Positions 3,796 to 36,167 of a DNA stretch of 64,000 bases are shown one piece after another. This DNA is from Verrucomicrobia bacterium LW23 (GTDB lineage Bacteria; Verrucomicrobiota; Verrucomicrobiia; Methylacidiphilales; UBA1321). The stretch covers positions 186,001 to 250,000 of the forward strand of contig QAZA01000039.1 of NCBI GenBank assembly GCA_003054695.1, given 5' to 3'. The first letter of the stretch is position 1. Each line of letters begins with the position of its first letter. The translations under genes were made by a program, and so were the position numbers. The notes beneath the pieces were generated by a model. It was not told where the DNA came from and did not search any database. It saw only the letters and a list, made by a program, of their open reading frames with translations.

Positions 3796-5610
3796 ATGAA
3801 CTTACCCCCGAAGATCGGCACCTGGATGCGCGGTGGCACACCCGACAGCGAACTCCTCTCCCCGGCGGCCCTCAGCGCCGCCCTGCGGAGCGTCCGCAAA
3901 CCCCTCTTTGCCGTGCGCACCGACGGCAAAACTCTCGGCTTTACCACCGAAGGCGCCGCTATTGCCTTCGCCCCCGGCGGCAATATCGCCGCGGACCTCG
4001 AAGTCACCGCCGAAGATGGCTCCCCCGCACTGCCGCCCCTTCCCCTCCACGGCCTCGCCATGCCCGTCGCGCCCGAGCTCCTGGGCGACGCCGGTTTCCG
4101 CGAAGCCTACGGCCTGCGCTACGCCTACGTGGCCGGCGAGATGGCCAACGGCATCGCCAGCGCCGAGATTGTCGAAGCCATGGGCAACGCCGGCATGATC
4201 GGCTTCTTCGGCGCCGCCGGCCTTAGCCTGGAGCGCGTGGAAGCCGCGATCGACCGCATTCAGCGCAACCTCGGCGCCCCCGGCTCGCCCCACGCAAAGC
4301 CTTATGGCTTCAACCTTATCCACAGCCCCAGCGAGCCCGACCTGGAGGCCGCCGTGGCCGACTTGTACCTGCGCCGCGGCGTCACCCGCGTCTGCGCCAG
4401 CGCCTACCTGGACCTGACGCTCCCCGTCGTCAAATACCGCCTGGCCGGCATCCACCGCGCCGAGGACGGCACCGTCGTCACCCCCAACAAGCTCATCGCC
4501 AAGATCTCCCGCGTGGAGGTCGCGCGGCATTTCCTCGCCCCCGCGCCGGAGCGCTTCGTCAGCACCCTGGTCGCCAGCGGATTCCTGACAGCCGAGCAGG
4601 CGCAGCTTGCCGCGCTAGTGCCTGTGGCGGAAGATCTTACAGCTGAGGCGGACTCCGGCGGCCACACCGACAACCGCCCCGCTGTCTCGCTCATCCCCAC
4701 TATTATTGCGCTGCGCGACGAAATGCAGGCGCGCCACCGCTACGCCGTCGCCCCGCGCGTCGGCGCGGCCGGCGGCATCTCCACACCCGCCTCCGCCGCG
4801 GCCGCCTTTGCGATGGGCGCCGCCTACATCGTCACCGGCTCCGTAAACCAGGCCTGCGTGGAGGCCGGCATCTCCGCGCCCGTCAAGCAGATGCTGGCCG
4901 AAGCCGGCCAGGCCGACATCGTCATGGCCCCCGCCGCCGACATGTTTGAGATGGGCGTGAAAGTGCAGGTCCTTAAGCGAGGTACCATGTTTGCTGTGCG
5001 CGGCCGTAAACTTTACGAAATTTACCTGCAATACCCCAGCATCGACGCCATCCCCGCCGCCGTGCGCCAGCCGCTGGAGCGTGACATGTTCCGCTGCACG
5101 CTTGAAGAAGCCTGGGCCTCCACCAAATCGTATTTCGCCACCCGCGATCCCCGGCAGATCGCCCGCGCCGAAAAAGATCCTAAACACCTGATGGCGTTGG
5201 TCTTCCGCAGCTACCTCGGCCAAACCAGCCGCTGGGCCATCGCCGGCGATTCCAGCCGCAAGGTGGACTACCAGGTGTGGTGCGGCCCCGCCATGGGTGC
5301 CTTTAACGAATGGACACGCGGCAGCTTTTTGGAAAAGGCCGAAGCCCGCGATGTCGTCACTGTCGCGCTTAACATCCTCTACGGCACGGCTATACAATTG
5401 CGCGCCGCCTCACTGCAAAGCCAGGGCATCCCGGTGCCCAGCGAAGCTGCCTCCTTTCAACCCCTGCCCCGGGCCGAGGTGCAGGCCGCCATCGACGCAG
5501 ACGCTGTGCAGGACGATCTCGACAACTCTGAATCCCTTGACTGCGAGGCACTTGCGGCTCTGGACAAAACCTTCCCCGAACTCGCCGCCGCAGCCAGCGT
5601 GGCCCCATGA
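3796..5610 (+). CDS. pfaD: PUFA synthase enoyl reductase PfaD
   Basis: 604 residues, the trans-acting enoyl reductase of the polyunsaturated fatty acid synthase. It is a TIM-barrel FMN enzyme of the nitronate monooxygenase/2-nitropropane dioxygenase fold. PfaD hallmarks include the glycine-rich segment around GNAGMIGFFGAAGLS, the FNLIHSPSEPDLE strand, the GAAGGISTPASAAAAFAMGA phosphate-binding region, and the C-terminal block with TRDPRQ, QVWCGPAMGAFNEW and the closing helices. In the pathway it removes double bonds on selected cycles while the dehydratases of PfaA and PfaC set or keep the others. The stop overlaps the pfaA start (ATGA at 5607-5610), so the two are probably translationally coupled. 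No strong ribosome-binding site is visible before its own ATG. Confidence 0.93.
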   Translation: MNLPPKIGTWMRGGTPDSELLSPAALSAALRSVRKPLFAVRTDGKTLGFTTEGAAIAFAPGGNIAADLEVTAEDGSPALPPLPLHGLAMPVAPELLGDAGFREAYGLRYAYVAGEMANGIASAEIVEAMGNAGMIGFFGAAGLSLERVEAAIDRIQRNLGAPGSPHAKPYGFNLIHSPSEPDLEAAVADLYLRRGVTRVCASAYLDLTLPVVKYRLAGIHRAEDGTVVTPNKLIAKISRVEVARHFLAPAPERFVSTLVASGFLTAEQAQLAALVPVAEDLTAEADSGGHTDNRPAVSLIPTIIALRDEMQARHRYAVAPRVGAAGGISTPASAAAAFAMGAAYIVTGSVNQACVEAGISAPVKQMLAEAGQADIVMAPAADMFEMGVKVQVLKRGTMFAVRGRKLYEIYLQYPSIDAIPAAVRQPLERDMFRCTLEEAWASTKSYFATRDPRQIARAEKDPKHLMALVFRSYLGQTSRWAIAGDSSRKVDYQVWCGPAMGAFNEWTRGSFLEKAEARDVVTVALNILYGTAIQLRAASLQSQGIPVPSEAASFQPLPRAEVQAAIDADAVQDDLDNSESLDCEALAALDKTFPELAAAASVAP

Positions 5611-8600
5611 CCACCCTCCCCATGCCGACCACGCCCGCCACAGCCACCGAGTCCGCCGAGACGCCGACGATGCACCCCGTCGCGATCATCGGCATGGGCG
5701 GCCTTTTCCCTAAAGCGCTCAATATCAGAGACTTCTGGCGCAATATCCGCAACGGCACGGATTGCATTACGGACATCCCCGCAAGTCACTGGCGTGCAAG
5801 CGATTACTTTGACGGCGATCCCTCCGCGCCCGACAAAACCTACGCCCGCCGCGGCGGCTTCCTATCTCCGTATCCCTTTGATCCACTGGAGTTTGGCATC
5901 CCGCCCAACGTCCTGGAAGCCACCGACACGTCACAACTCCTTGGCCTCGTCGCCGCCCGCGCCGCGCTGATGGACGCCGGCTACGCCAGCCAGCCCGGCG
6001 CCCCCGGCAAAGCCTTCGATCGCGACAAGTGCTCCGTCATTCTCGGCGTCACCGGCGCCCTCGAACTCGTCATCCCGCTCGGTGCGCGCCTCGGTCATCC
6101 GCTTTGGCGTAAATCCTTGCAGGACGAAGGCGTTACGCAGGAGCAAACTGACGCGGTCATGCGCCGCATCGGCGAAGGCATGGTGGCCTGGCAGGAGAAT
6201 TCCTTCCCCGGCCTCCTCGGCAACGTCGTCGCCGGTCGCATCGCCAATCGCCTCGACCTCGGCGGCACCAACTGCGTCGTCGACGCCGCGTGCGGATCCA
6301 GCCTCAGCGCCACCCACCTGGCGTTGCTGGAAATCGCCGCCGGCAAGGCCGAAATGGTGATTACGGGAGGTGTCGATACGTTTAACGACATCTTCATGTT
6401 CATGTGCTTCAGCAAAACGCCCGCCCTCTCCCCCAGCGGCGACGCGAAACCTTTCGACATCACCGCCGACGGCACCTCCATCGGCGAGGGCTTGGGCATG
6501 GTCGTGCTCAAACGCCTTGATGCGGCCGAACGCGACGGCGACCGTATCTACGCTGTTATCAAAGGCTTAGGCACCGCCAGCGACGGTCGTTTCAAAAGCA
6601 TCTACGCCCCGCGATCCGACGGCCAGGCCAAGGCCCTGCGCGCCGCCTATCGCCAGGCCGGCATCACGCCCGATACCATCGACCTCCTCGAAGCCCACGG
6701 CACCGGCACCAAAGCCGGAGACCTGGCCGAGTTTAACGCGCTGAAGGATGTCTACCGCGAGGCACGCGCCGAAGGTACCTGGTGCGCCATAGGTTCCGTC
6801 AAATCGCAAATTGGCCACACCAAAGCCGCCGCCGGTTCCGCTGGCCTTATTAAGGCTGCGTTAGCCCTTTATCATAAGGTACTTCCGCCAACCGCCAAGA
6901 TTACGGAGCCCAATCCGAAAATGGGGATGGAATCGAGCCCGTTCTATCTCAATACCCAGGCGCGCCCCTGGCCCGCTCCCGCCGGCCACCCCCGCCGCGC
7001 TGCCGTCAGCGCGTTCGGCTTTGGCGGAAGTAACTTCCATACCGTGCTGGAGGAGCATGCGCCGGCACAACGTGTTGCCGCACAAAGTGATAGCACCATC
7101 GGTGATAGCCCTTTCTCCCGCGAGCCCGCGTGGGATGGCTCCGTCGAAATCGCCGCGTTCAGTGCCCCCAGCGCCTCCGCGCTTGGGGAACTTCTGCGCC
7201 CGCTTGCCGAAATTCTGGACGAAACGGAGCCAGATCCCGTCACCCTAAAGCCTTCCACCACAGCAGTTTCGCCAGCTCGCGCCGCAAGGCTCTCCCTGTT
7301 TGCGTGGCAATCCCGGCAAACCTTCGACGTCGCCTCCCCGTGGCGATGCATCGTCGTCATCCGTCCCACGGACGGCGAATCACTCGCACGCCAAGCCCGC
7401 GCCCTGCAGGGACATTGCATGTCCCTTGCGTCGCAAGCCCCTGATAGCAAAGCATTACCCGCGCTGGAGTCCAGCCTGGGTATATTTACAGGGACATCGC
7501 ATGTCCCTGGCAAGCTCGCCCTCCTTTTTCCCGGCCAGGGCTCCCAGTGCACGGATATGGGCCGCGAACTCGCGACGCTCTTCCCGGAGTTTCAAAGCTC
7601 CCTGGACGCCGCAAACCGCGAAGTCCCCGGAATCACCTCCCAAATCTATCCGCAACCCGCTTATAAGGAAGAGGATAAGAAGACTCGCGCAGCCCTGCTA
7701 ACCCCCACCCGAGTCGCCCAGCCCGCCCTTGCCGCAGTGTGCCACGGATGGCTCGGCGTCCTGCGCCGCTTCGGAGTCTCCTTCGACGCCGTTGCAGGCC
7801 ACAGCTTTGGCGAACTACCCGCGCTTGCGGCAGCCGGCGTACTGGACGAAGCCGGCCTGATGACCGCAGCCCGTGCCCGGGGACATGCCATGTCCCTGGC
7901 TGCCGCCGCTGCAGGCAACGGCGCGTCCACTGGTGCCATGCTCGCCGTCCGCGCTCCCTTGACAGAGCTCGAACAACTGATTGCAAGTAAAGGACTTGCG
8001 GTCGTCCTGGCTAATCGCAACAGCCCTCGCCAGGGTGTTCTCTCCGGCCCCTCCGATGCCATCGCTGCCGCCGAAGCCGCATGCGCTGAGCGCCAATGGA
8101 CAACACGCCGCCTGGAAGTCTCCGCCGCTTTCCACAGCGCGCAGGTTTCCGATGCCGTCGGCCCATTCGCAGCAGCGCTCGGCAGGCTCTCTTTTGCAAA
8201 GCCAACCGTGCCTGTCTACGCAAACACGACCGCCGAGCCCTACCCGGAAGCGGCCGCCAGGCAGACGGAACTCCTTGCCGATCAACTGGCTAAGCCGGTG
8301 CGCTTTGCTGAGACACTCGAAGCGCTCCATAAAAGCGGCCATGCTATCTTTGTCGAGGTGGGCCCTAAATCGGTCCTGACAGGACTCGTTCGGGACACCC
8401 TGGGCAACGAAGCGGTTGCTATTCCCTTAAATCCCTCAGGAACAAAAGGTTGCGCGCTAACGGAGCTGGCTGCGGCCCTCGCTCGTCTCGCCGCGCTGGG
8501 CGTACCTGTGCGCCTTAAGGAAGAGTGGGAGCCGCTGGGCAACAGCTTCGCCATCACCCCAGCAAAGGGCAGGCTCATCGTCCCCATTTGCGGGGCCAAC

Positions 8601-11600
8601 TACCGCAGCCCGCAGCCCGAACGCCCGCCCGCACCCCGCCCTTCGAGCCCTACTCCCACCCAAAAGGTTGCCGCAAACGGGCAGTCCAACACAATTTCCG
8701 TCGAGAAGTCCGTTTCGCCCGCCCGCGCCGCAACTCCCTCTGCTACAAGCACCTCCACCCTCCTGACCAGAAGTGCCGCACCCGTCGTCGCCCCTGCCGA
8801 AAAGAGCAGGCTTGCGAATGGCAACGGCTCTGCTACTAGCTCAGGACCCCGCGCGACGCCGCCGCCGGCTCGCTATCCCACCTCCGCCATGAACGCCCAG
8901 CCCCCCGGTAACGACCTGCCACACCCCCTTACCGCCCAACCGCCTGCCCCAGAAAGCCTTACGCTAGTACGCGACGCCTTCTCCGCTACTCAGGAGAGCC
9001 TCCGCGCCCTGCACACGCTTTCCACGCAGACGGCAGCGCTGCACCAAAAGTTTCTGGAGGGCCAGGATAACGCGCAACGCGCTTTCCATCATATTTTTGA
9101 TCAGCAAAGGCGCATTATCGAGCGTGCGATGGGCATCGCTTCGTCTGGAGACACCGCGCCTCCGCCCTACGTTGCGCCGCCTGCGCCGGTGGTTCCCGTC
9201 TACGCCGCTCCCGCAGTCACGCCCATGCCGCATGGCAATGGGATTGCTTCTCCCATAACTCCTGCTTCTGTAAGCACTTATGCACGCAGCAATGGAGCGC
9301 ATCCGACGTCTCCTTTGCCAAGCTACACGCCGGCCTCGCCCAGCACAAATGGCGTCTATGCCGCATCTGCTGCAGCTGCCCCAGCTGATATGCCTGCACC
9401 TTTGCGCCCGCAGGCGCCCGCAACGCCGCCTACGGCAGCTGAGCCTACGACGCCCAAAGCGGCCACCCCCACAGGCGCAAGTATTGACGCCGCTCGTCTG
9501 GAAGGCGTTCTTCTGGATGTAGTTGCGGATAAAACCGGCTATCCTCGCGAGACCCTGGGTTTGGAGATGGATTTCGAGTCCGACCTCGGCATCGACTCCA
9601 TCAAACGCGTGGAGATTCTTGCGGCCCTGCGCGAGAAAATGCCCGAAGCCCCCAGCGTCGAACCCGAGCACCTGGGTACGCTCCGGAACCTGCGTGATAT
9701 CATTGCGTTCATCACAGAGAAGGCGTCTCCTGCAGCTTCGACGCCGATTTCCACTGGCACTCCCGTGTCTGCCCCAGCCCCCAAACCTGCGGCTTCGGCG
9801 TCCTCCAACTTTGCGGAGATCCTGCTGGATGTGGTTGCTGATAAGACAGGTTATCCGCGCGAAACCCTTGGGCTGGAGATGGATCTGGAATCCGATCTCG
9901 GTATCGACTCCATTAAGCGCGTCGAAATCCTGGCAGGTATGCGCCAGCGCGCTCCGGAGGCTCCAAGCGTGGAGCCTGAGCATCTCGGCAGCCTGCGGAC
10001 GCTTCAGGATATCCTGAATTTCCTGGGAGAACGCATGAATACCGGTGACTCGCCGCCAGGTCATTCCTCGCCCCCGGATACAGCCATTGCGGCAACCGCG
10101 TCCGGAGCCTCGCGCTCTTTTTTTGAACAAGCCTCCCGCCCCCCTGCGGTCGAGCGCAGGGAACTGATTGCCACCGCAATCGCCCCCGCTCCGACTGCGA
10201 CGCTTCGTGTCGCGCCCGACCACGAAGTGCTGGTGGCGGGAGGCGGCGGATCTCGCATCGGGCAAGCTCTTGTGGAGGCTCTCCGCTGCTCGCAGATTTC
10301 TGCCAGGCTGGTTGATCCCGCTTCTGCAACGCACATTTCGTCGGATTCGTCGAGCCTCCGTACCGGTGGACTCGTTATCGTTGCCGAGCCGGTCGGCACG
10401 GCAGGGACAAGCCTTGTCTCTGAAGCGTCAGAACAGCTTATCAAACAAGCCTTTGCGTTGCTTAAGAAGCACAACGCCGATATCCGGTCCGCAGCCCGAA
10501 AGGGCGGTGCATTCGTTGCTACGGTAACGTGTCTGAACGGAAAGTTTGGCCTTGGCGGCCCCCTTATCGCAAGCGCAGCTGACGGCGGTCTTGCCGGACT
10601 GGCAAAAACCGTGGCGTCCGAGTGGGCTGGCGTTCGGTCCATCGCCTTCGATGTAGCTGCTGAGGACCCAGCAACCGCAGCGCAAATCATTCTCCAAGAA
10701 CTTGCTGCTGAACGTGTTGTAGAGCTTGGAGTCGCAACCTCGGCGGATTGCGAAGTAGAATTGACGCAGTTGCAACTCGTCGAGCGCCCTTTCCCCAGGC
10801 CGGAGGTTGAATCTCGCTGGGGCTCCAACGACGTTATTGTCGTTACAGGCGGAGCCCGTGGCGTAACTGCCGCATCGGCCCTTGGGCTTGCAGAACATTT
10901 TGCAGCGCACGGACTTAAGCCAACAGTTGTGTTGATGGGAAGAAGCGCCGCGCCTAAACCGGAGCCCGCCTGGCTGAACAAAATTGAGGGTGAGGCCGCA
11001 ATCAAGCGCGCCGTGCTGGAGAACGGCAAGGCAGAAGGTAAACCTCTCAGCCCCAAAGCTATAGGTGATGCTTACCGCCTTATTGCTTCAAATCGCGAAG
11101 TTTCAGCGACCCTCGAAAGGTTGAACAGCCTTGTGCGCGGCGCCTACGTGCAGGCGGACGTTCGCGACAAGGCGTCCATGCAAGCTGCTCTGCATCAGGT
11201 ACGTACGCAGTTCGGTCCAATTACGGGTATCGTGCACGGCGCGGGATTGCTGGAGGACAAACGGATTGAGGATAAGACGACCGCGCAGTTTGACACGGTT
11301 TTCGACACGAAGGTTCACGGCCTGAGGCACTTGCTTCAAGCTGTGTCGAAGGACCCTCTCAAGGCGATTGCGTACTTTTCCTCCGTTAGTGGTCGCTTTG
11401 GCCGGCGCGGACAAATCGACTATTCGATCGCCAACGAAGTGCTCAACAAAGTGGCTCAGGCTCAAGCACTTGCGCTTAGCGCATGCAGAGTCGTCTCCCT
11501 GAACTGGGGGCCCTGGGAAGGCGGAATGGTGACGCCCGGCCTGCGCCGCGAGTTCGAGAAGGAAGGCGTTGGGCTGATTCCCCTGCAGGAAGGTGCGCGA

Positions 11601-12665
11601 GCGTTTGTCGCGGAGTTTCTTGCCGTGCCAGGTGTTGGAGCTGTTGAAGTTACGCTGGGGTCCGTACTGGCCGAACCCGAGTCAACTTCACAAGCGACCG
11701 CGACCTCGGAGGGGCCCGTGATGGCGGCACCCGCGGTTGTTGCCAGCCACAAGATTTCGGCGGCTGCAATCCCCGTGCTGCGTGCGCACCAGCTGGCCGG
11801 CCGCTCAGTGGTGCCCCTGGCCCTTATGATGGAGTGGTTCGCCGAAGCCGCCGCCAGCCGTGGAACGGGTACGCTGAATGGCCTTGAGCGAGTGCAAGTG
11901 CTTAAGGGATTGACACTTGAGAAGAACGGTGTGCTGGAGGCACGCATCATCGCAGGATCTCTTGTCGTCGATAAGGATACCTTGTTGCCGCTGGAGCTCG
12001 TCTCCTCTCAGGACGGACGAGTTCACGCCCGCGCAACGGCAATCTACACGGCATCAGGCAGTTCCACGGTGACAGGGACGCGAGTTGTCCCTCCCCAGGT
12101 TCCCCAGCCCCAGCTTTCGGATCTGCTTCCCTACCGCCTGACAGCTGCGCGCGCATACCGCGACATTCTGTTCCATGGTCCTGAGCTTCAAGCAATTACA
12201 CATATTGGCGGTTGGAGCAAGGAAGGCATGATCGCGACTGCTAACGTGGCGCCCGCGCCCTCGGAGTGGATTGCCGGACGGACAACGCCCTGGCATACGG
12301 ACCCGCTGGTCATCGATGCCGCATTTCAGCTGGCTATCCTTTGGTGTCAGGAAGCGCTGGGCTCGCCCTCGCTCCCGTCGCGCCTGGGTAGCTATAGGCA
12401 ATTCGCACCTTTTCCGCCAAATGGCACCGTGGACATCCTGTTTCATGTGCGTAAGTCTAATGCTCACATGGCTTTGGGCGATTTTTATGTGACTCGGGAT
12501 GGTCGCGTTATTGCGTCGATTCACGAATTTGAATGCACCGTTAATGCGGCTCTTACGGAGGCCTTCAAGGGCGGAGCCACACGCGATACGGCTGCATCCA
12601 AAGCGCACGGCGGCAATCACTTATCAACATCTCCCGTCCTTCGGGCGCCCCTTGCCGGTGAGTAA
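5607..12665 (+). CDS. pfaA: PUFA synthase PfaA-type multidomain protein (KS-AT-ACP-ACP-KR-DH)
   Basis: 2352 residues. Domains in order: ketosynthase (from residue 22; active-site C229 in DAACGSS, H364 in HGTGT, H404 in IGHTKAA), malonyl-type acyltransferase (about 636-950; FPGQGSQ, catalytic S733 in GHSFGE), a Pro/Ala linker containing a helical segment HQKFLEGQ (about 1145), two acyl carrier domains with the LGIDSIKR motif (S1331 and S1435, the phosphopantetheine sites), ketoreductase (TGGARGV near 1745; Y1939 in DYSIANE), and a C-terminal hotdog dehydratase pair (H2061 in AHQLAG, D2237 in IDAAFQ). This is the PfaA order, but with only two carrier domains where many PUFA synthases carry four or more. 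No phosphopantetheinyl transferase is visible in the window. Five copies of the GGGACAT palindrome lie inside it. Confidence 0.93.
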   Translation: MTTLPMPTTPATATESAETPTMHPVAIIGMGGLFPKALNIRDFWRNIRNGTDCITDIPASHWRASDYFDGDPSAPDKTYARRGGFLSPYPFDPLEFGIPPNVLEATDTSQLLGLVAARAALMDAGYASQPGAPGKAFDRDKCSVILGVTGALELVIPLGARLGHPLWRKSLQDEGVTQEQTDAVMRRIGEGMVAWQENSFPGLLGNVVAGRIANRLDLGGTNCVVDAACGSSLSATHLALLEIAAGKAEMVITGGVDTFNDIFMFMCFSKTPALSPSGDAKPFDITADGTSIGEGLGMVVLKRLDAAERDGDRIYAVIKGLGTASDGRFKSIYAPRSDGQAKALRAAYRQAGITPDTIDLLEAHGTGTKAGDLAEFNALKDVYREARAEGTWCAIGSVKSQIGHTKAAAGSAGLIKAALALYHKVLPPTAKITEPNPKMGMESSPFYLNTQARPWPAPAGHPRRAAVSAFGFGGSNFHTVLEEHAPAQRVAAQSDSTIGDSPFSREPAWDGSVEIAAFSAPSASALGELLRPLAEILDETEPDPVTLKPSTTAVSPARAARLSLFAWQSRQTFDVASPWRCIVVIRPTDGESLARQARALQGHCMSLASQAPDSKALPALESSLGIFTGTSHVPGKLALLFPGQGSQCTDMGRELATLFPEFQSSLDAANREVPGITSQIYPQPAYKEEDKKTRAALLTPTRVAQPALAAVCHGWLGVLRRFGVSFDAVAGHSFGELPALAAAGVLDEAGLMTAARARGHAMSLAAAAAGNGASTGAMLAVRAPLTELEQLIASKGLAVVLANRNSPRQGVLSGPSDAIAAAEAACAERQWTTRRLEVSAAFHSAQVSDAVGPFAAALGRLSFAKPTVPVYANTTAEPYPEAAARQTELLADQLAKPVRFAETLEALHKSGHAIFVEVGPKSVLTGLVRDTLGNEAVAIPLNPSGTKGCALTELAAALARLAALGVPVRLKEEWEPLGNSFAITPAKGRLIVPICGANYRSPQPERPPAPRPSSPTPTQKVAANGQSNTISVEKSVSPARAATPSATSTSTLLTRSAAPVVAPAEKSRLANGNGSATSSGPRATPPPARYPTSAMNAQPPGNDLPHPLTAQPPAPESLTLVRDAFSATQESLRALHTLSTQTAALHQKFLEGQDNAQRAFHHIFDQQRRIIERAMGIASSGDTAPPPYVAPPAPVVPVYAAPAVTPMPHGNGIASPITPASVSTYARSNGAHPTSPLPSYTPASPSTNGVYAASAAAAPADMPAPLRPQAPATPPTAAEPTTPKAATPTGASIDAARLEGVLLDVVADKTGYPRETLGLEMDFESDLGIDSIKRVEILAALREKMPEAPSVEPEHLGTLRNLRDIIAFITEKASPAASTPISTGTPVSAPAPKPAASASSNFAEILLDVVADKTGYPRETLGLEMDLESDLGIDSIKRVEILAGMRQRAPEAPSVEPEHLGSLRTLQDILNFLGERMNTGDSPPGHSSPPDTAIAATASGASRSFFEQASRPPAVERRELIATAIAPAPTATLRVAPDHEVLVAGGGGSRIGQALVEALRCSQISARLVDPASATHISSDSSSLRTGGLVIVAEPVGTAGTSLVSEASEQLIKQAFALLKKHNADIRSAARKGGAFVATVTCLNGKFGLGGPLIASAADGGLAGLAKTVASEWAGVRSIAFDVAAEDPATAAQIILQELAAERVVELGVATSADCEVELTQLQLVERPFPRPEVESRWGSNDVIVVTGGARGVTAASALGLAEHFAAHGLKPTVVLMGRSAAPKPEPAWLNKIEGEAAIKRAVLENGKAEGKPLSPKAIGDAYRLIASNREVSATLERLNSLVRGAYVQADVRDKASMQAALHQVRTQFGPITGIVHGAGLLEDKRIEDKTTAQFDTVFDTKVHGLRHLLQAVSKDPLKAIAYFSSVSGRFGRRGQIDYSIANEVLNKVAQAQALALSACRVVSLNWGPWEGGMVTPGLRREFEKEGVGLIPLQEGARAFVAEFLAVPGVGAVEVTLGSVLAEPESTSQATATSEGPVMAAPAVVASHKISAAAIPVLRAHQLAGRSVVPLALMMEWFAEAAASRGTGTLNGLERVQVLKGLTLEKNGVLEARIIAGSLVVDKDTLLPLELVSSQDGRVHARATAIYTASGSSTVTGTRVVPPQVPQPQLSDLLPYRLTAARAYRDILFHGPELQAITHIGGWSKEGMIATANVAPAPSEWIAGRTTPWHTDPLVIDAAFQLAILWCQEALGSPSLPSRLGSYRQFAPFPPNGTVDILFHVRKSNAHMALGDFYVTRDGRVIASIHEFECTVNAALTEAFKGGATRDTAASKAHGGNHLSTSPVLRAPLAGE
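7408..7426. repeat. Coding palindrome AGGGACAT-TGC-ATGTCCCT
   Basis: Perfect 8-bp arms around a 3-base centre, inside pfaA. Read in frame as GHCMSLA, in a poorly conserved linker just before the acyltransferase domain. Confidence 0.85.
7490..7508. repeat. Coding palindrome AGGGACAT-CGC-ATGTCCCT
   Basis: Perfect 8-bp arms inside pfaA, 63 bases after the previous copy. Read in the other frame as GTSHVPG, immediately before the acyltransferase strand KLALLFPGQGSQ. Confidence 0.85.
7880..7896. repeat. Coding palindrome GGGACAT-GCC-ATGTCCC
   Basis: Perfect 7-bp arms inside the acyltransferase domain of pfaA, read as GHAMSLA. Acyltransferases often have an RG.xM segment here, so the copy either replaced or grew from native sequence. 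Confidence 0.8.
10403..10421. repeat. Diverged coding palindrome in pfaA
   Basis: AGGGACAA-GCC-TTGTCTCT: the outer A/T pair has changed in both arms, so pairing is kept, with one mismatch. Read as GTSLVSE, between the second carrier domain and the ketoreductase. Confidence 0.55.
12074..12092. repeat. Diverged coding palindrome in pfaA dehydratase region
   Basis: AGGGACGC-GAG-TTGTCCCT, imperfect arms. Read as GTRVVPP, in the same frame class as the GTSHVPG copies, between the two hotdog halves. Confidence 0.5.
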
Positions 12666-15600
12666 CTCCGACTTTGGGCGTCGTCCGCGCGCCATTGCTG
12701 TTATTGCCTGGAGTGGATGTTTTCCAGGCGCCAATTCACCTGAAGAATTCTGGCAGAATCTCGTCAACGCGAGGGACGCTTCCTCCGACACGCCTCCCGC
12801 CGGCCGCTGGGTGCTGGATCCTGGAAGCGAACCGCTCTTGGCGTCCTTTCCCGCCGAGGCCGACAAGGTAGCGTCTACCCGGGCCTATTTTCTGCGATCC
12901 GACCCCACCGCTGGAGGTGGACCAGACGCCCAACTGCTTGAAGGCGAAGCACTTCTCGATCCGCTATGCCAACTGGCCTTGCACGTGGGGCGCCGGGCCT
13001 GGAGCAACGCGGGGTGTCCTCTGCCATCCGACCCCACGCGGGCCGGAGTTATCCTTGCTAACATCGCGCTGCCCACGGATTCCATTTCCGACCTGGCCCG
13101 TGAAGCGGCGGCTGGACCTGTGCAACAAGCTGTGGCTGAGCATCTTGGCGTTCCCATCGAGCCCGGCGTCAGCCCGTGCGCGACGCCCGGCGGCCCTGGT
13201 GATATTCATCCTACAGCACGCGCCGTTGCTGGTTTGCCTGCGGGGCTCCTCGCGTCCGCGCTGGGGGTGCAAGGCGGTGCGTACACGCTGGATGCCGCGT
13301 GCGCTTCGTCTCTGTATGCCATTGAGCTTGCGGCACTTGAGTTGGAGGCGGGCCGTGCGGACGTCATGATCTCCGGCGGGATGTCGCGGCCGGATTCCCT
13401 TTACACGCAGATGGGTTTCTCCCAACTGCGCGCCCTCTCCGCAAAGGGGCGTTGCGCTCCGTTCGACGCCTCCGCAGACGGACTGATGGTGGGCGAAGGA
13501 GCCGCCTTTTTTGTTCTCAAACGCCTGGATGATGCCATCGCCGCGGGTGATCCGATCCATGCCGTTATTCGCGGCATCGGTCTTTCCAATGACGTTGGGG
13601 GTAAACTACTTGCGCCGGATTCCGAGGGTCAGCTGCGGGCAATGAATATTGCCTATCAGCAGGCGGGTTGGCAGGCGCAGGACGTCGACATGATCGAGTG
13701 CCATGGCACGGGTACCCCCCGCGGTGATGCAACGGAACTCACGAGCCTTCGCACGCTTTGGGAGGCTTCCGGCTCCAACGTCGCGGCGGCCCCCCGTTGC
13801 GCGGTAGGCTCCGTCAAGGCGAATGTGGGGCACCTGCTTACGGGCGCGGGCGCCGCCGCTTTGTCTAAGGTTCTGCTGGCGCTTAAGCACGAGACGATTC
13901 CGCCTCAGCCTAATTTTACGCAGGCCGCTTCGGATTCTCCCCTTCAGGGCAGCCCGTTCTTTGTGCCTGTGGCGCCGGTTTCCTGGAAGCGGCGTGAGGC
14001 TCTGACGCCGCGCCGTGCGGCGGTCAGTGGGTTCGGGTTTGGCGGTATTAACGCGCATCTTCTTCTGGAAGAATGGCTTCCGCAGAGTGAAAGCAACCTT
14101 GCAGGTCCGGCGATTCACGTGACTGAGCCCCCTGAGCCAGTCGCGATTGTGGGGATGGAGGCGTGCTTTGGTCCGTTGGCAACGCTTCGCGATTTTCAGA
14201 CGGCCCATTTTCATGGCACAAGCGCCATCCGGGAGAATCCGCCAGCATCGCGTGCACGTTCTATCCAACTTGCGAGCGGTGCTGGGAAATCGGGGACATC
14301 GCATGTCTCTGGCCAGGCGCAACACTTGCAGCCAAAAGACGTTGCGTTGGCACGTGGTGCCTATTTGCCCGATTTGGCAATTCACGCCGGGGAGTTCCGA
14401 ATCCCACCGGTGGAGCTTACGGATATCCTTCCACAGCAGTTGCTTATGCTTAGGGTGGCGAAAGCTGCGCTGCAAGACGCTGTTGGTGAGGCGGGTGCGC
14501 AGCGTAAATTGCGGACGCGAGCGGGCGTCATTTGTGGAATGAGCCTTGACCTGGGGACCACCAACTTTCATCTGCGGTGGACGGCGGAGAGACTTGTGCG
14601 GCGCGCCTTGGCGGAGCTGGGTATCCAACTTGCTGGCAACGAGTTAGCTGCGCTTGTGGCGGCCGTTCGGGAGCGACTTTCGCCTCCTCTTACGGCGACG
14701 CGCACGCTTGGAGCGCTTGGAGGCATTATCGCGAGTCGAATCGCCCGGGAGCTGGACCTGGGGGGGGCCAGCTTTACCATCTCCAGTGAGGAAAGCTCCG
14801 GGCTTCGCGCCGTTGAGGTAGCGACTAGACTTTTGCAGGCGGAGCGACTGGATCTGGCGATTGCCGGGGCGGTTGATCTGCCGCTGGACTGGCGTTGCAT
14901 CTTCGCTCGCGAGACTTTAACCGCACAGCAGCAACATGTTGCGCAAAGCGCGTACGGCGATGGCGCAGGCGCCGTTGTGCTCAAGCGCCTTAGCGATGCG
15001 CAGCGCAACGGGGATCGCATCTATGCGGTCCTTCGCGGTATTGGCTGCGCAAACGCCTCTGGCCCAATCGCTAATGCCTTCCCTGCGTTTAAGGGTGCTG
15101 CAGCATCGCTGAGTCACGCCTGCCGGCGAGCGGGACAGGATGTGCCGGGCGCTATGCCGGGGCTGTGGGAGACAAGCGGGCAGGCCGATTCCTTAGTTAC
15201 TGAGCTTCAGCAGCTTCCAGAAAGAAGTAATGCCTTCCAACCTTGTGCTCTTTCCACGGCGCATGCAGTTGCTGGCGATTGCGGGGCGGCGCACGGCATG
15301 GTATCGCTTCTGCGCGCTGTGCTGGCCCTTCATACCGCCACCTTGCCCGCGCAAACGGTTGTTGACTGTTCACTTGCGCCACAGGGACATGCTATGTCCC
15401 TGGCATCCGCGAGCGAAGGACTGAACGAAGAGACCTGGCACATTCCCCGGCAGGCTCTGCCATGGATTCGCGATCGCGTCGACGGCCCGAGGATTGCGGC
15501 AGTCAGTTCCCTGGGCAGCGATGGCACTGCGCTGCACGCGCTGTTGGAGGAAGCACCGGCCGTTACGAGCGCTACCCGTGCCCCTGCGTTAAGGCAAAGC

Positions 15601-18600
15601 GATCGCTTTTACCCTTTGGCGCCGGCACCTCATGCATCGCGGGAAGCGCTGTTTCCTGTTGCAGGCAAAGATGTTAGGGAGATTTCAAGGCAGCTTGACG
15701 TTCTGCTGACCTGGGCGAAAGCCAATTGCGAAGCGAAGGGCGCAGCTGTTACTGATGAAGATCGCGGTTCCGACGCTGAGCTTCTGGAAGGTTTTGCACG
15801 GCAATGGGTTGGAGAGCATGCCGGCGATTGCCTCGCGGAATCTCCATCCGTACTGCGCCTTGCGATTCTCGCAGGATCGGTTGACGAGTTGCGCCGGCGT
15901 GTGGCGGATGCTGCGACCCAGTTCAGGACGGCGTCGGCTCGCCTTCCCCAGGCAATGGATGGAAGGAAAGGGATTTTCTTTTCTCCTGAACCGATGGCGC
16001 CGCAAGGGCAAACGGCCTTCTTGTTCCCGGGCTCCTGCAACCACTATCTGGGCATGGGCCAAGGGTATGCCCTGCGCTTTCCTCAGGTGCTTGACTCACT
16101 TGACGCTGATAATCAAAGACTTGCATCGCAATCAATGCCTCGTTGGCTCGCGCCGTGGCGCCTTTCCTGGCCGGCGGACTGGGAGGCCCAATCGGCCGCC
16201 GCCCTGCTGGATGACCAGCACAGGATGATTTTTGGGCAGGTTACGCATGGTGTTGTGGTGCACGATGTTCTGCGCCTCTTTCTGCCGCAGCCGGACGCCG
16301 TGATCGGCTATAGCCTGGGCGAGACAGCATCGCTCTTCTCCACGCGAACGTGGCGTGGCCGCGACGAGCTGCTGCGTCGCATGCAGGCTACCGACCTTTT
16401 CCGCACCCAGCTGGGCGGCACTTATGAGGCAGCCCGCCGCCACTTGAGATGGCCACGCGATATGGAGATCGACTGGCAGGCCGCCGTTGTCAATCGCCCG
16501 GCGGAAGCTGTTCGCGCCGTACTCGACGATCCCGCCCGACGCGACGAGTTTCGCGCCGTTTTCCTTTTGATTGTGAACGCGCCGGAGGAGTGTGTTCTTG
16601 GCGGCCACTGGCCCGATGTTCAGCGCGCCGTCGCAGCCATGGGCGGGCGCGCGTGGCCGCTCTCCGGAATTTCGATTGCGCATTGTGCTGTGGTGCAAGA
16701 AGTTGCGGATCAATACCGTGATCTGCACCGCCTTCCCGTGACGCCCCCTCAGGGCATGCGCATTTACAGCGGCAACCTTGCTGCGCCGTACGAGGCAACT
16801 ACCGAAAACTGCGCAAACTCGGTGCTGCGGCACGCCCTTTATGGCTTCGACTACCCCGCCGTTATCAACCGGGCGTGGGACGACGGGATCCGGATTTTCG
16901 TGGAGCCCGGTCCGCAGGGCTCCTGCACGCGCGCCGTTGGTCGGATTCTGCGCGACAAGCCGCATGTGGCCGTAACAGCATGCGTGCGGGGACAAGATGA
17001 CTGGGCAAGTCTCCTGCGCGTGCTGGGCAGGCTGTTTGCGGAGGGTGTGCCCGTTCGCTTTGATGCATTGTATCCTGTTGTCCATAAAAAGCTTGCATCT
17101 CCTGCCAAGGACGGCCGCACCATCCTGGTGCCGATAGAACTTCCGGCGATTCGACTGGAGGCAGGGACATGGCACGTCCCCGGACAAACGCAAGCGCCTG
17201 TGCCGGAGTATGATGGGCATGAGCTATTAGCACAGGAGTCAGCTCCTCAGGCGAGTAGTTTCGCAGCCGTTACCATTGTCTCCCCGCTCGTCCAGGATGT
17301 TGCAGAAACCTTTGCGGCACAACCTGTTGCCATTTCTACCACCACACAAATGATCCGTCAGGAATCCTCACCACTTGTGTCCACCACCCGCTTTCAGCTA
17401 CAGGAAGTGTTGGGCGGTGCCGAAAGCGCGACGTTGCAAGTGTCTCAGGCTACGGGGGATGCGCATGCCTCTTTCCTTGCCCTCTCGCAGACAACCAACG
17501 GTGCGATGTCGGCAGCTATCGAGTTCCAGCTCAAGTTGATGGAGAGCGCGGGGCTGGCCTCTTTTGTGCCCGGTGGCGTTGAGCAATCGCCGGCCGTCTA
17601 TAGCCGGCAGGGACATGACATGTCCCTGCATGACGAGCCTCTTTCCACCCATGCACAAGTTTCCTTCAGTCAGGCAGATCTTCCTCATTATCAACAAGAT
17701 CCAGCAACACCTCCTCGCGCCCTCAACCGGGCGGCGTGCCTGGAGTTCGCCATCGGCTCCATCAGCCGGGTCCTGGGCCCCCTTTATGCCGAAGCCGACA
17801 ACGTGCCCAACCGCGTTCGTTTGCCCGACGAGCCGCTGATGCTCGTGGACCGCATCACCGACATCCAGGGCGAACCGCTCTCCCTGGGCAGCGGAATGGT
17901 GGTTACCGAGCACGATGTTCTGCCCGGCGCCTGGTACCTGGACGCAGGCTGCGCACCCGTATGCATTAGCGTGGAGGCGGGCCAGGCCGACCTTTTCCTC
18001 TCCGGGTACCTGGGGATTGACCTGGCGACGCGCGGTGAGCGTCGATACCGGTTGCTCGACGCCAGGATCGCCTTTCACCGGCATTTGCCGCGTCCGGGCG
18101 AGACGATTCGATACGAGATTCATATCGACAAGTTTATACAGCAGGGTAACACCTGGCTTTTCTTCTTCCGTTTTGATGGCTTTATCGGAACCGAACCGCT
18201 GCTGACGATGCGCGACGGCTGCGCCGGGTTCTTCTCCCAGCAACAGCTGGATAACTCCGCAGGCATCGTCCTTACCCCGGAGGAAGCGAATCCAGGCTCC
18301 CGCACCTTGCCCTCCGACTGGCTGCGGCTCGTCTCAACGCCCGTCGCCGCAACTACTTACAGCGCCTCCCAGCTGGAGGCTCTGCGTCACGGCAACCTCG
18401 CCGGCGCCTTCGGTCCGGAGTTCGCCAACCTCCCCTTGCGGCAGGCATCCGGACTGCCGGGAGGGCGCATGACGCTGATCCACCGCGTTACGGCTCTCGA
18501 CCCGCGGGGCGGACGATACGGCCTGGGCTCCATTACCGCCGAGGCGGATGTGAAGCCCGACGACTGGTACCTGACATGCCATTTTATCGACGACATGGTG

Positions 18601-20190
18601 ATGCCCGGCACACTGATGTACGAGTGCTGCCTGCACACCCTGCGGGTTTACCTGATGCGCCTGGGCTGGGTGGGCGAGGAAGGCGCCGTAACCTACGAGC
18701 CGGTACCCGGGCGCGCCAGCAAACTGCGATGCCGCGGCCAGGTGCTGCAATCCACCCGCGTGGTGCGCTACGAGATTGAGCTGAAGGAACTGGGCTATGC
18801 GCCGGGCACCGGCCAGCCCTACGCCATCGCCGATGCCTTCATGTACTCCGACGGCAGGCGCATCGTGTTTATGAGCGATATGTCGCTGCGCCTGAACGGC
18901 TTAACGCGCAACGGCCTGGCAGCCATGTGGGCGGGACAGGCACGTGCCGCAGCTGGTACCTACGGCGTACCTTCGGCCGACGCCTCGCCCGCAGTCTACA
19001 CGCAGCAGCAGATTTTGCAGTACGCCATTGGCGAGCCCTCGCAGGGATTTGGCGAGCCTTACCGCATCTTTGATCACGGCACAGGCCGCGTGCTGGCTCG
19101 CCTGCCGGGGCCGCCCTACCTTTTCGTGGATCGTGTGACCCAGACGCACGGCGCGCGTGCCTGGGAGCTTGCCGCCGGCGCCTGGATTGAGGCACAGTAT
19201 GATGTCCCCCGCGACGCCTGGTACTTCTGGGCCAATCGCCAGAAGAGTATGGCGCTGAGCGTGTTACTGGAGATTGCGCTACAGCCGTGCGGCTGGCTGG
19301 CTGCCTTCCTGGGCTCCGCCTTGCGCTCGCCGGAGATGGATCTGCACTTCCGCAACCTCGGTGGCACCGCCGTGCAGCTCCGGGAGATCCTGCCCGGCAG
19401 CGGCGAGTTGACCACGCAGGTAAAGCTGACAAGCTTTAGCGAAGCGGGAGGAATGATCATTCAGAAGTACGACATGTGCGTTTGGCAAGGCGGGGAACCT
19501 GTGTACAAGGGGGATACCTCCTTTGGCTTTTTCTCCAAAGCTGCTCTGGCCCAACAAGTTGGCGTGCGCGGCGCCCGCGAGCGGCAATGGAAGCCGACAG
19601 CCGAGGCGCTTGCATCCGCGCTTGCACTGGAGATAGCACCCGAAGCCCCGTTGACGCCCGAAGATGCAGAAGTCCTTGCCAGGCAGGATGTTGCTGAGGG
19701 ACATGCTTTGTCTCCGGGACACGTCATGTCCCTGGGTATGCATCTGCCCGCCCGAGCATACCGGATGGTGGAGTCCGCGCAATTTATCGCGGATGGCGGT
19801 CCGCATGGCCTCGGCTATATCCGTGGCGAGGCGGCCGTCGATCCCGGCGCCTGGTTCTTCAAGGCACACTTTTACCAGGATCCTGTGTGGCCAGGCTCGC
19901 TTGGCCTGGAGTCCATGTTGCAACTGCTCAAGCTTGCGGCTCGCCAGCTGTGGCCGCAACTTATTGCCACGCAACGGTTTACGCCCATCGGGATTGGGCG
20001 GCCTCATACCTGGGCCTATCGCGGCCAAATCATTCCGCGCAACAAAAGGGTGTGTGTGGATGCCGTGATTACGAAGCAGGAATTTGATCCCGCCTCCGGT
20101 ACTGCTATGCTTACGGCGGACGGATTTCTCGAGGTGGATGGAATTATCATCTACGAGATGACCGGCTTTACCCTTGGTCTCACTACTTAA
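12658..20190 (+). CDS. pfaC: PUFA synthase PfaC-type protein with embedded acyltransferase (KS-CLF-AT-DH-DH)
   Basis: I chose the GTG at 12658 as the start. It overlaps the pfaA stop by 8 bases and opens just before the first ketosynthase strand; an ATG at 12499 would put 53 unrelated residues deep inside pfaA. About 2510 residues. Domains: ketosynthase (C215 in DAACASS, H349, H392); chain-length factor, a ketosynthase fold with Glu (about E712) in place of cysteine and the first His motif replaced by ETSG; acyltransferase (FPGSCNHYLG near 1122, S1219 in GYSLGE, with Tyr replacing the usual His); a helical segment near 1603; then two FabA-like dehydratases, each a double hotdog in which only the second half keeps the histidine (H1975 in CHFIDD, H2404 in AHFYQD). 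PfaC normally lacks the acyltransferase, which sits in PfaB; the fused order matches myxobacterial Pfa3, but no C-terminal lysophosphatidate acyltransferase domain is present. Confidence 0.9.
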   Translation: MSNSDFGRRPRAIAVIAWSGCFPGANSPEEFWQNLVNARDASSDTPPAGRWVLDPGSEPLLASFPAEADKVASTRAYFLRSDPTAGGGPDAQLLEGEALLDPLCQLALHVGRRAWSNAGCPLPSDPTRAGVILANIALPTDSISDLAREAAAGPVQQAVAEHLGVPIEPGVSPCATPGGPGDIHPTARAVAGLPAGLLASALGVQGGAYTLDAACASSLYAIELAALELEAGRADVMISGGMSRPDSLYTQMGFSQLRALSAKGRCAPFDASADGLMVGEGAAFFVLKRLDDAIAAGDPIHAVIRGIGLSNDVGGKLLAPDSEGQLRAMNIAYQQAGWQAQDVDMIECHGTGTPRGDATELTSLRTLWEASGSNVAAAPRCAVGSVKANVGHLLTGAGAAALSKVLLALKHETIPPQPNFTQAASDSPLQGSPFFVPVAPVSWKRREALTPRRAAVSGFGFGGINAHLLLEEWLPQSESNLAGPAIHVTEPPEPVAIVGMEACFGPLATLRDFQTAHFHGTSAIRENPPASRARSIQLASGAGKSGTSHVSGQAQHLQPKDVALARGAYLPDLAIHAGEFRIPPVELTDILPQQLLMLRVAKAALQDAVGEAGAQRKLRTRAGVICGMSLDLGTTNFHLRWTAERLVRRALAELGIQLAGNELAALVAAVRERLSPPLTATRTLGALGGIIASRIARELDLGGASFTISSEESSGLRAVEVATRLLQAERLDLAIAGAVDLPLDWRCIFARETLTAQQQHVAQSAYGDGAGAVVLKRLSDAQRNGDRIYAVLRGIGCANASGPIANAFPAFKGAAASLSHACRRAGQDVPGAMPGLWETSGQADSLVTELQQLPERSNAFQPCALSTAHAVAGDCGAAHGMVSLLRAVLALHTATLPAQTVVDCSLAPQGHAMSLASASEGLNEETWHIPRQALPWIRDRVDGPRIAAVSSLGSDGTALHALLEEAPAVTSATRAPALRQSDRFYPLAPAPHASREALFPVAGKDVREISRQLDVLLTWAKANCEAKGAAVTDEDRGSDAELLEGFARQWVGEHAGDCLAESPSVLRLAILAGSVDELRRRVADAATQFRTASARLPQAMDGRKGIFFSPEPMAPQGQTAFLFPGSCNHYLGMGQGYALRFPQVLDSLDADNQRLASQSMPRWLAPWRLSWPADWEAQSAAALLDDQHRMIFGQVTHGVVVHDVLRLFLPQPDAVIGYSLGETASLFSTRTWRGRDELLRRMQATDLFRTQLGGTYEAARRHLRWPRDMEIDWQAAVVNRPAEAVRAVLDDPARRDEFRAVFLLIVNAPEECVLGGHWPDVQRAVAAMGGRAWPLSGISIAHCAVVQEVADQYRDLHRLPVTPPQGMRIYSGNLAAPYEATTENCANSVLRHALYGFDYPAVINRAWDDGIRIFVEPGPQGSCTRAVGRILRDKPHVAVTACVRGQDDWASLLRVLGRLFAEGVPVRFDALYPVVHKKLASPAKDGRTILVPIELPAIRLEAGTWHVPGQTQAPVPEYDGHELLAQESAPQASSFAAVTIVSPLVQDVAETFAAQPVAISTTTQMIRQESSPLVSTTRFQLQEVLGGAESATLQVSQATGDAHASFLALSQTTNGAMSAAIEFQLKLMESAGLASFVPGGVEQSPAVYSRQGHDMSLHDEPLSTHAQVSFSQADLPHYQQDPATPPRALNRAACLEFAIGSISRVLGPLYAEADNVPNRVRLPDEPLMLVDRITDIQGEPLSLGSGMVVTEHDVLPGAWYLDAGCAPVCISVEAGQADLFLSGYLGIDLATRGERRYRLLDARIAFHRHLPRPGETIRYEIHIDKFIQQGNTWLFFFRFDGFIGTEPLLTMRDGCAGFFSQQQLDNSAGIVLTPEEANPGSRTLPSDWLRLVSTPVAATTYSASQLEALRHGNLAGAFGPEFANLPLRQASGLPGGRMTLIHRVTALDPRGGRYGLGSITAEADVKPDDWYLTCHFIDDMVMPGTLMYECCLHTLRVYLMRLGWVGEEGAVTYEPVPGRASKLRCRGQVLQSTRVVRYEIELKELGYAPGTGQPYAIADAFMYSDGRRIVFMSDMSLRLNGLTRNGLAAMWAGQARAAAGTYGVPSADASPAVYTQQQILQYAIGEPSQGFGEPYRIFDHGTGRVLARLPGPPYLFVDRVTQTHGARAWELAAGAWIEAQYDVPRDAWYFWANRQKSMALSVLLEIALQPCGWLAAFLGSALRSPEMDLHFRNLGGTAVQLREILPGSGELTTQVKLTSFSEAGGMIIQKYDMCVWQGGEPVYKGDTSFGFFSKAALAQQVGVRGARERQWKPTAEALASALALEIAPEAPLTPEDAEVLARQDVAEGHALSPGHVMSLGMHLPARAYRMVESAQFIADGGPHGLGYIRGEAAVDPGAWFFKAHFYQDPVWPGSLGLESMLQLLKLAARQLWPQLIATQRFTPIGIGRPHTWAYRGQIIPRNKRVCVDAVITKQEFDPASGTAMLTADGFLEVDGIIIYEMTGFTLGLTT
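14293..14309. repeat. Coding palindrome GGGACAT-CGC-ATGTCTC in pfaC
   Basis: One mismatch in the right arm. Read as GTSHVSG, near the N-terminal side of the chain-length-factor domain. Confidence 0.7.
15383..15401. repeat. Coding palindrome AGGGACAT-GCT-ATGTCCCT in pfaC
   Basis: Perfect 8-bp arms, read as GHAMSLA, in the C-terminal part of the chain-length-factor domain. Confidence 0.85.
17163..17181. repeat. Coding palindrome AGGGACAT-GGC-ACGTCCCC in pfaC
   Basis: Two changes in the right arm. Read as GTWHVPG, in the linker after the acyltransferase. Confidence 0.7.
17609..17627. repeat. Coding palindrome AGGGACAT-GAC-ATGTCCCT in pfaC
   Basis: Perfect 8-bp arms, read as GHDMSL, in the linker before the first dehydratase. 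Confidence 0.85.
19697..19732. repeat. Tandem pair of coding palindromes in pfaC
   Basis: Two units directly abut: AGGGACAT-GCT-TTGTCTCC (19697-19715) and GGGACAC-GTC-ATGTCCC (19716-19732). Both are read in the GHxMSL frame (GHALSP then GHVMSLG), in the linker between the two halves of the second dehydratase. Confidence 0.75.
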
Positions 20191-20211: not shown

Positions 20212-20568
20212 ATGACGACATCCATGCCATCACAGGATCCCGGCGAAACGCGCCCGGCCGCCTCGCGAGAAGAGGCGCCGGCACCTGAGGCACAGGGGCA
20301 CGAGGAGGAATCGGTACTGGTGGTGATTGAGGTGGTAAAGCTTTACATCTGCGCGATCATGCCCATCGTCATCCTCTTTTTCTTGCCAATTGGCGAGGTC
20401 CAGCCCATTCGCCGTGTCTCAATCGCACTCCCGATGATCGGCCTGATTGTGGCGCTGCTGATGGCCATGAACGCCCGCAGCCGCGGCCCCGCCTGGTGGT
20501 GGTGGCTGGGTGGCGCCCTCGCCGCTCAAATGGTCGGCCTCTTTTATATCTTTCTCCATTCCTGGTAA
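20212..20568 (+). CDS. Small three-helix membrane protein downstream of pfaC
   Basis: 118 residues. A charged, Glu/Pro-rich cytoplasmic-looking N-terminus (about 40 residues) is followed by three hydrophobic segments: VVKLYICAIMPIVILFFLP, VSIALPMIGLIVALLMA and a Trp-rich GGALAAQMVGLFYIFL. It begins 22 bases after the pfaC stop on the same strand, so it may be co-transcribed with the PUFA genes. I recognise no family. A role in membrane adaptation to unusual lipids would be speculation. Confidence 0.65.
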   Translation: MTTSMPSQDPGETRPAASREEAPAPEAQGHEEESVLVVIEVVKLYICAIMPIVILFFLPIGEVQPIRRVSIALPMIGLIVALLMAMNARSRGPAWWWWLGGALAAQMVGLFYIFLHSW

Positions 20569-20628
20569 AGCTTGCACGACGGCACCACCAGGGCGAAATT
20601 AGGAAAACAAACTGCGGAGGACGGCGCG

Positions 20629-20913
20629 ATGAAATCTGACACGCTATCTCTAACTCCTTGGTTATCAACGCGTTCCACCAACAAGCGGAACCATTCCCCG
20701 GCCGTGGCTCGTGCTGCGGCCGCAATACTGGCAACCGGCTTCCTGACGGCCTGCGCCACAACGGATACCGCCGGCAGGTCCTCGCGCACAACCTCTAAGC
20801 CTAACGAGGAGAACGTGTTGCGTCCCACCAACACTCCCCCGCCGGACTTCAGCGGCCCCCCCGCCTACGTACCGCCAAAGCGCTCCAACCCAACGCCGGG
20901 GATCTATCGCTAG
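20629..20913 (+). CDS. Small proline-rich lipoprotein
   Basis: About 94 residues from the ATG at 20629, which has a GCGGAGGA ribosome-binding site 8 bases upstream; an in-frame TTG at 20572 has no such site. The N-terminal hydrophobic stretch ends in LTAC, a lipobox, so the protein should be lipidated at that Cys. The rest is short, Ser/Thr- and Pro-rich and probably disordered (PPPDFSGPPAYVPPK). It lies 60 bases after the small membrane protein and converges on the GH31 gene. No family recognised. Confidence 0.6.
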   Translation: MKSDTLSLTPWLSTRSTNKRNHSPAVARAAAAILATGFLTACATTDTAGRSSRTTSKPNEENVLRPTNTPPPDFSGPPAYVPPKRSNPTPGIYR

Positions 20914-25191: not shown

Positions 25192-25227
25192 GCACCTGCG
25201 CTTTAATGCTTTAAGGACTCGCAATGT

Positions 25228-29064: not shown

Positions 29065-29149
29065 CGCATAGAAGCGCGTTACTTTGCGGTAACGTGCGCG
29101 AGCGAGAAGCGAAATAGTCGTACAACAATTTTCTAGCTAACACATTGGT

Positions 29150-33913: not shown

Positions 33914-33976
33914 CCCTCCCTTTAGCAAAACGTTTAACTTACCCCCAACCGGACACTCCCTTTCTCCCAGTCACCC

Positions 33977-36120: not shown

Positions 36121-36167
36121 CAACGCTTTGCGGGCCGCGCCGCGGATTTCTTTTCCTCACCGACACC

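Follow-up and report, generated by a model that had tools for sequence, protein, structure and literature searches.

Several described synthases resemble the pfaD-pfaA-pfaC operon analyzed here. In Shewanella oneidensis a Pfa synthase and OleA, OleB and OleC occur in one genome, as they do in the host, and form a pfa-ole polyene pathway in which OleA takes 16:4 chains off the Pfa ACPs, leading to a 31:9 product (PMC6463001). The marine gammaproteobacterial PfaABCD synthases of Shewanella and Moritella have the same catalytic domains, but their order is A-B-C-D, they carry 4-6 ACPs and pfaB is a separate gene; PfaB is a terminal acyltransferase with a nucleophile motif of the GYSxG type, and in marine bacteria it decides the final PUFA (PMC12895367). 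In the myxobacterial Pfa1-Pfa2-Pfa3 systems (Sorangium, Aetherobacter and Minicystis; Type L) the order is pfaD-pfaA-pfaC, and in Aetherobacter and Minicystis the AT lies inside Pfa3 (PMC8436480, PMC4882568), which ends in an AGPAT domain; the relatives given for the Minicystis Pfa include Azospirillum (PMC8436480). The Type I pfa genes of Geobacter, Pelobacter and Gemmata (Shulse & Allen 2011) share a pfaBC fusion and a patchy distribution and often occur with ole genes, and a coupling of OleA to Pfa was proposed for them (PMC3098273). The text of that survey does not name the host phylum, and in the literature searched we found no treatment of PUFA-type synthases in Methylacidiphilales.

The host genome is 6.6 Mb in 56 contigs, with a completeness of 95% and 1.4% contamination, and it has no match to pmoA. 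A verrucomicrobial host had been suggested before, and its order is Methylacidiphilales, in the phylum Verrucomicrobiota, because a sister family of the same order, with genomes of 2.2-2.5 Mb, carries two to four pmoA/amoA-type genes, the pattern of the family that we take to be Methylacidiphilaceae.

All the coordinates of the locus (Table 1) are positions in the window, i.e., the whole 64,000-nt stretch of DNA analyzed, and not in the contig. The three genes overlap and lie on the + strand in the order pfaD-pfaA-pfaC. The longest pfaC ORF starts at 12499, giving a 167-base overlap with pfaA, but the GTG at 12658 is more likely to be the start, since it overlaps the pfaA stop in the same way as the ATGA at the pfaD/pfaA junction. 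This 16 kb of co-directional, open and motif-complete coding sequence far exceeds what chance could explain. Composition is not distinctive, because the GC3 of pfaA and pfaC (~0.66) is within 1 SD of the other genes of the window (mean 0.74, SD 0.08), and a recent transfer argued from composition was therefore dropped.

Table 1. Predicted features of the pfa locus and of the ORFs that follow it
Feature	Position in window	Strand	Evidence
pfaD (Pfa1-like), trans-acting enoyl reductase, 604 aa	3796..5610	+	PfaD domain ~4072-5403; TIGR02814
pfaA (Pfa2-like), KS-MAT-ACP-ACP-KR-DH, 2352 aa	5607..12665	+	TIGR02813 and Pfam domains
PfaA ketosynthase	5664..7076	+	Pfam, KS tree, motifs
PfaA malonyl transferase (MAT), GHSFG	7503..8486	+	PF00698
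PfaA tandem ACP domains (two)	9510..10025	+	PF00550, two stretches; serine motifs
PfaA ketoreductase	10836..11519	+	PF08659; aligned with three verrucomicrobial relatives
PfaA C-terminal PKS-type dehydratase	11733..12596	+	PF14765 and PF21089
pfaC (Pfa3-like), KS-CLF-AT-DH-DH, ~2510 aa from GTG 12658	12658..20190	+	Pfam domains, motifs
PfaC ketosynthase, C-H-H intact	12688..14091	+	best solved relative 6riw (ORF10)
PfaC chain-length factor (CLF)	14131..15618	+	alignment with 6riw; active-site Cys replaced
PfaB-type AT fused into PfaC, GYSLG nucleophile motif	16036..17298	+	9ry8; TIGR02816
PfaC FabA-type hot-dog units (four), two dehydratase/isomerase pairs	17710..20178	+	PF07977, four stretches; FabA structures
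118-aa ORF, 21 bases past pfaC, with two stretches judged hydrophobic by eye	20212..20568	+	
Lipoprotein-like ORF, LTAC motif	20572-20913	+	

The 118-aa ORF may be co-transcribed with pfaC, and is followed by the lipoprotein-like ORF and then by a GH31 glycosidase; neither of the two small ORFs had a Pfam match or an equivalent next to the pfa genes of relatives. No ole genes adjoin pfaC in the window, and no PKS, NRPS or glycosyl-transfer gene adjoins the operon there. Further along the + strand are a xanthine-dehydrogenase-like operon (23448-30190; XdhC, MobA-like, [2Fe-2S], molybdopterin-binding and FAD-binding subunits) and a set of futalosine-type menaquinone genes (32999-38356; a UbiX-like flavoprotein, a UbiA prenyltransferase, two CofH/MqnC-type radical SAM proteins and VitK2_biosynth).

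In profile searches PfaD scored 630.6 bits against TIGR02814 (cut-off 449.25) and PfaA 1437 bits against TIGR02813 (cut-off 1010). The best solved relatives of PfaD were the PfaD structures 6lkc and 4yx6 (554 and 538 bits), followed by the thraustochytrid ER (434/419 bits) and the trans-AT PKS ERs DfnA and MlnA (404/367 bits), and by these scores PfaD ranks nearer the true PfaD structures than the trans-AT PKS reductases. In PfaA, the catalytic residues of the KS (C229, H364 and H404), the MAT nucleophile (S733), the ACP serines S1331 and S1435 in the motif DLGIDSIK, and the DH motif AHQLAGRSVVP are all present. The best solved match of the PfaC KS, 6riw, was deposited as ORF10 and is presumably the Moritella marina PfaC KS-CLF; the marine gammaproteobacterial systems likewise supply the best solved relatives of PfaB and PfaD. 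The CLF here has SSEESS in place of the SAEENS of 6riw, so that neither has the catalytic Cys. The AT that lies between the CLF and the hot dogs has diverged too far for Pfam to detect it: in a PDB search its sole solved relative was 9ry8, the Shewanella baltica PfaB (E 2.4e-14), it scored 48 bits against TIGR02816, under the cut-off of 144, and its GYSLG motif differs from the GHSFG of the PfaA MAT. The first-pass annotation, which had placed an acyltransferase within the PfaC-type protein, was borne out by this PfaB-like domain. Of the four hot-dog units, 2 and 4 carry His and Glu. Since only 3 residues remain beyond the last hot dog, PfaC lacks a C-terminal AGPAT, as had also been claimed. 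The same method did detect the AGPAT tail (PF01553) of the Azospirillum lipoferum PfaC, a positive control that was the one exception among 42 complete PfaC proteins, the other 41 having at most 24 residues beyond the last hot dog. To judge by these domain searches, a missing AGPAT is the rule among the PfaC proteins compared.

All the catalytic motifs of the three proteins are intact. When conserved columns were defined as those kept in at least 93% of relatives (19-136 columns per domain), the host synthase departed from them at only 0-5 positions per domain. In the KS tree, which like all the trees here was a quick search with SH-aLRT support only, the PfaA KS and the PfaC KS were each placed inside the PUFA clade (98-99% SH-aLRT), far from the KS of a modular PKS and from those of Beijerinckia and Gloeothece; some loci that hold only PfaC also fell in the PfaC clade. 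The PfaC KS has a long branch (0.94), but degeneration of PfaC was not supported, as the conserved columns were retained. A KS phylogeny had been put forward earlier as the check on whether this was a PUFA synthase at all, and the domains grouped with PUFA synthases rather than with polyketide synthases. PfaA and PfaD passed their family cut-offs, and the KS, ER and AT were nearest to PUFA-synthase proteins. At the level of sequence, the pfaD-A-C operon was confirmed as a complete and intact PUFA-type (Pfa) synthase, and not a polyketide synthase, and its domains and clades mark it as a further member of a known and widespread synthase lineage.

Named genomes were scanned with the KR-DH part of PfaA, and domains were mapped in the best 80 of more than 560 relatives together with Verrucomicrobiota and plasmid-borne clusters. 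Among the mapped loci, pfaD-pfaA-pfaC with a KS-CLF-AT-four-hot-dog PfaC was the usual form across several phyla (Planctomycetota, Elusimicrobiota, Riflebacteria, Desulfobacterota, Acidobacteriota and other Verrucomicrobiota). The earlier comparison with the myxobacterial arrangement thus stood as far as the gene order and the KS-CLF-AT-DH-DH protein are concerned, but the trait is general rather than specific to myxobacteria, because it is shared by the mapped loci of many phyla. For the myxobacterial grouping the trees contained the proxies Azospirillum and Streptomyces in place of Sorangium and Aetherobacter, and both proxies fell elsewhere; the AGPAT-bearing Azospirillum synthase was outside the host clade in both the PfaA-KS and the PfaD tree (98% each). 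A "Myxococcales" MAG locus (L045) was rejected as a myxobacterial anchor, as its genome falls in a small phylum represented in the genomes compared by five members. This MAG and another titled Deltaproteobacteria (L026) represent that phylum (G384 and G385), in which PfaD was over the cut-off in 5/5 genomes. The Shewanella and Moritella synthases formed clades separate from the host; besides the gene order, they differ from it in that the host has a fused AT and two ACPs. The nearest named type in the scheme of Shulse & Allen appears to be Type I, since Gemmataceae sequences, which stand here as a proxy for the Type I strains, share the clades of the host; three Gemmataceae loci (L033, L085 and L101) are likewise built as pfaD-A-C(KS-CLF-AT-DH-DH). 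Unlike many Type I clusters, the host has its ole genes unlinked to pfa.

The PfaD tree put the host sequence in a group (98% SH-aLRT) with Phycisphaerae and Desulfobacterota; the remaining five Verrucomicrobiota, the PfaD of Shewanella, Azospirillum and the Streptomyces cluster all lay elsewhere in it. PfaD was over the cut-off in 0/59 sampled relatives of the host (family and order) and in eight genomes of the class sample (n = 384); the matches in two of these (G161 and G083) were discarded, as the PfaD tree identified them as trans-AT PKS-type reductases and not pfa. The pfa-bearing Verrucomicrobiota are the host and five others. A separate origin of the host pfa from the other verrucomicrobial pfa was favoured by the trees (98-99% SH-aLRT), and an AU test rejected a six-row verrucomicrobial pfa clade (p 0.015); when a Betaproteobacteria-labelled locus that sits among the Verrucomicrobiota (L081) was included, the clade was no longer rejected (p 0.30). 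A separate origin is hence suggested, but not established, by these sequences. Variants were also observed among the mapped loci. In three Desulfobacterium/Desulfobacter loci (L084, L102 and L105) PfaA, or its KR-DH part, carries hot dogs 3-4 as a fusion at its end, and in a Phycisphaerales PfaC of 1776 aa (L046), from a locus among the nearest PfaD relatives of the host, no AT was detected between the CLF and the hot dogs. Two MAG records titled Klebsiella pneumoniae (L054 and L100) carry a pfaD-A-C-ole cluster; they group with other Gammaproteobacteria MAGs and Planctomycetota, and their titles are almost certainly wrong.

When the genes beside pfa were clustered across loci, one family predominated immediately after pfaC, namely OleA (NF006720); after it came OleB (haloalkane-dehalogenase-like) and OleC (NF006754, with olefin beta-lactone synthetase as the next best models). 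Counted within 1.2 kb of pfaC, oleA was directly 3′ of it in 21 of the 42 loci with enough sequence. On a contig other than that of the window, the host has oleA (C45:52745-53782; 451 bits, cut-off 285), adjoined by oleB (~C45:52-54 kb), and oleC at ~C45:623092-624960 (616 bits, cut-off 478), so that the pfa, oleAB and oleC genes occupy three separate places. Read by eye, the host OleA has its catalytic motifs (Cys, Glu, His and Asn). OleA was found in 6/6 pfa-bearing Verrucomicrobiota and in 75/384 genomes of the class (hypergeometric p 4.7e-5), and in the sample of the host order both OleA and PfaD over the cut-off were found in the host only. In the OleA tree, a 100% branch split 26 OleAs that are pfa-linked or from pfa genomes from 16 OleAs of pfa-less Verrucomicrobiota, and the host OleA fell on the pfa side, with 47-59% identity to this side and 35-43% to the other. 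A long branch leads to the solved Xanthomonas OleA, which did not fall on the pfa side. By its position and identities the host OleA is classed as of the pfa-partner type, though unlinked; it may attach at the base of that side, with which an AU test was compatible (p 0.42). The five highest OleA scores of the class sample (L140-L144) are those of the five other pfa-bearing genomes, so that HMM scores suffice to recognize the partner type.

We consider it probable that this operon encodes a Pfa synthase that mainly feeds the formation of a polyene hydrocarbon of the C31:9 (hentriacontanonaene) type through the unlinked OleA, OleB and OleC, rather than serving mainly to produce an omega-3 fatty acid of the dietary type. 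The steps that concern the fate of the chain at OleA are drawn from co-occurrence, OleA type and published work, and the active sites from the sequence itself. The ACPs of PfaA would be activated by an Sfp-like transferase, a role assigned from its family. The first-pass annotation had proposed a genome search for a phosphopantetheinyl transferase, and this search gave a single match, at C50:24083-24376 in an Sfp-size ORF of 331 aa, with PF01648 over the cut-off; it presumably serves both the fatty-acid and the Pfa ACPs. Within the region C50:12000-31999 this ORF is flanked by fabD on one side and, on the other, by a second stand-alone acyltransferase gene whose product has a GYSLGE motif. The MAT of PfaA would load malonyl units, and the PfaA KS and the PfaC KS-CLF would extend the chain. 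The KR would then reduce the keto group, and the FabA-type hot dogs and the PKS-type DH would dehydrate and isomerise, the isomerisation of double bonds being assigned to the FabA-type pairs from their family. PfaD would act in some cycles only, and the skipped enoyl reductions would leave a polyunsaturated chain on the two ACPs. This ACP-bound chain may be captured by OleA, which would condense two chains head-to-head, and OleC and OleB would convert the condensed product into a long polyene hydrocarbon of the C31:9 type. The PfaB-type AT may release or edit the remaining chains, and is a likely exit for free or phospholipid PUFA.

The candidate products listed in the first-pass annotation (EPA, DHA, ARA, LA or another lipid) had left out the one that is best supported here, a polyene hydrocarbon made with OleA/B/C. 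The operon could, with a smaller though appreciable chance, be a membrane PUFA synthase: the PfaB-type AT would free C18-C22 PUFAs (LA, ARA, EPA or DHA), a stand-alone PlsC would place them in phospholipids, and the ole genes would serve FAS-derived chains or be incidental. The full domain set of a PUFA synthase is in keeping with this, including an AT of the type that sets the final PUFA in marine bacteria (PMC12895367), as is the unlinked position of the host ole genes, and one Shewanella synthase can yield both PUFA and hydrocarbon (PMC6463001). Furthermore, co-occurrence of the two pathways does not fix the product, since Photobacterium profundum SS9 has both of them and makes EPA, with hydrocarbon undetectable. 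However, a membrane role sits poorly with a host OleA that is of the partner type, unlike the OleAs of pfa-less Verrucomicrobiota, with the position of oleA directly behind pfaC in half of the comparable relatives, and with a PfaC that has no AGPAT domain.

The chain might also be passed to another enzyme, e.g., a type I PKS, to give a glycolipid, a phenolic or a polyketide-lipid. Pfa-like synthases of Types F, G and P can feed such pathways (PMC3098273), and the host genome encodes two further PKS-like proteins (C45:263669, 1602 aa, and C23:123502, 1848 aa), but no PKS, NRPS or glycosyl-transfer gene adjoins the operon and its KS domains are remote from those of Beijerinckia (Type P) and cyanobacteria, and we regard such a hybrid use as improbable. 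Less probable still is that the cluster is an acquired one which has decayed or is silent and yields no product: the patchy distribution (0/59 relatives) and the long PfaC KS branch would fit it, but the three frames are open over 16 kb with every catalytic motif intact, conserved columns are kept at normal rates and GC3 is within the range of the neighbours.

If a polyene hydrocarbon is the main product, the question of which PUFA is made gives way to a concrete and testable prediction of a long-chain polyene hydrocarbon. With the pfaD-A-C architecture so broadly spread, the myxobacterial order is no special case. PUFA-type synthases are also extended to a verrucomicrobial order that includes methanotrophs. 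Each pfa genome found in Verrucomicrobiota carries a partner-type OleA, and the split between pfa-partner and other OleAs is a possible sequence marker for a polyene product. We tentatively propose, at slightly less than an even chance, that pfa and a distinct partner OleA lineage stay functionally paired even in genomes where their genes are dispersed, and that this Methylacidiphilales lineage makes a C31:9-like hydrocarbon as its main Pfa product. If so, the type of OleA alone would predict whether a genome makes a C31:9-like polyene rather than FAS-derived olefins.
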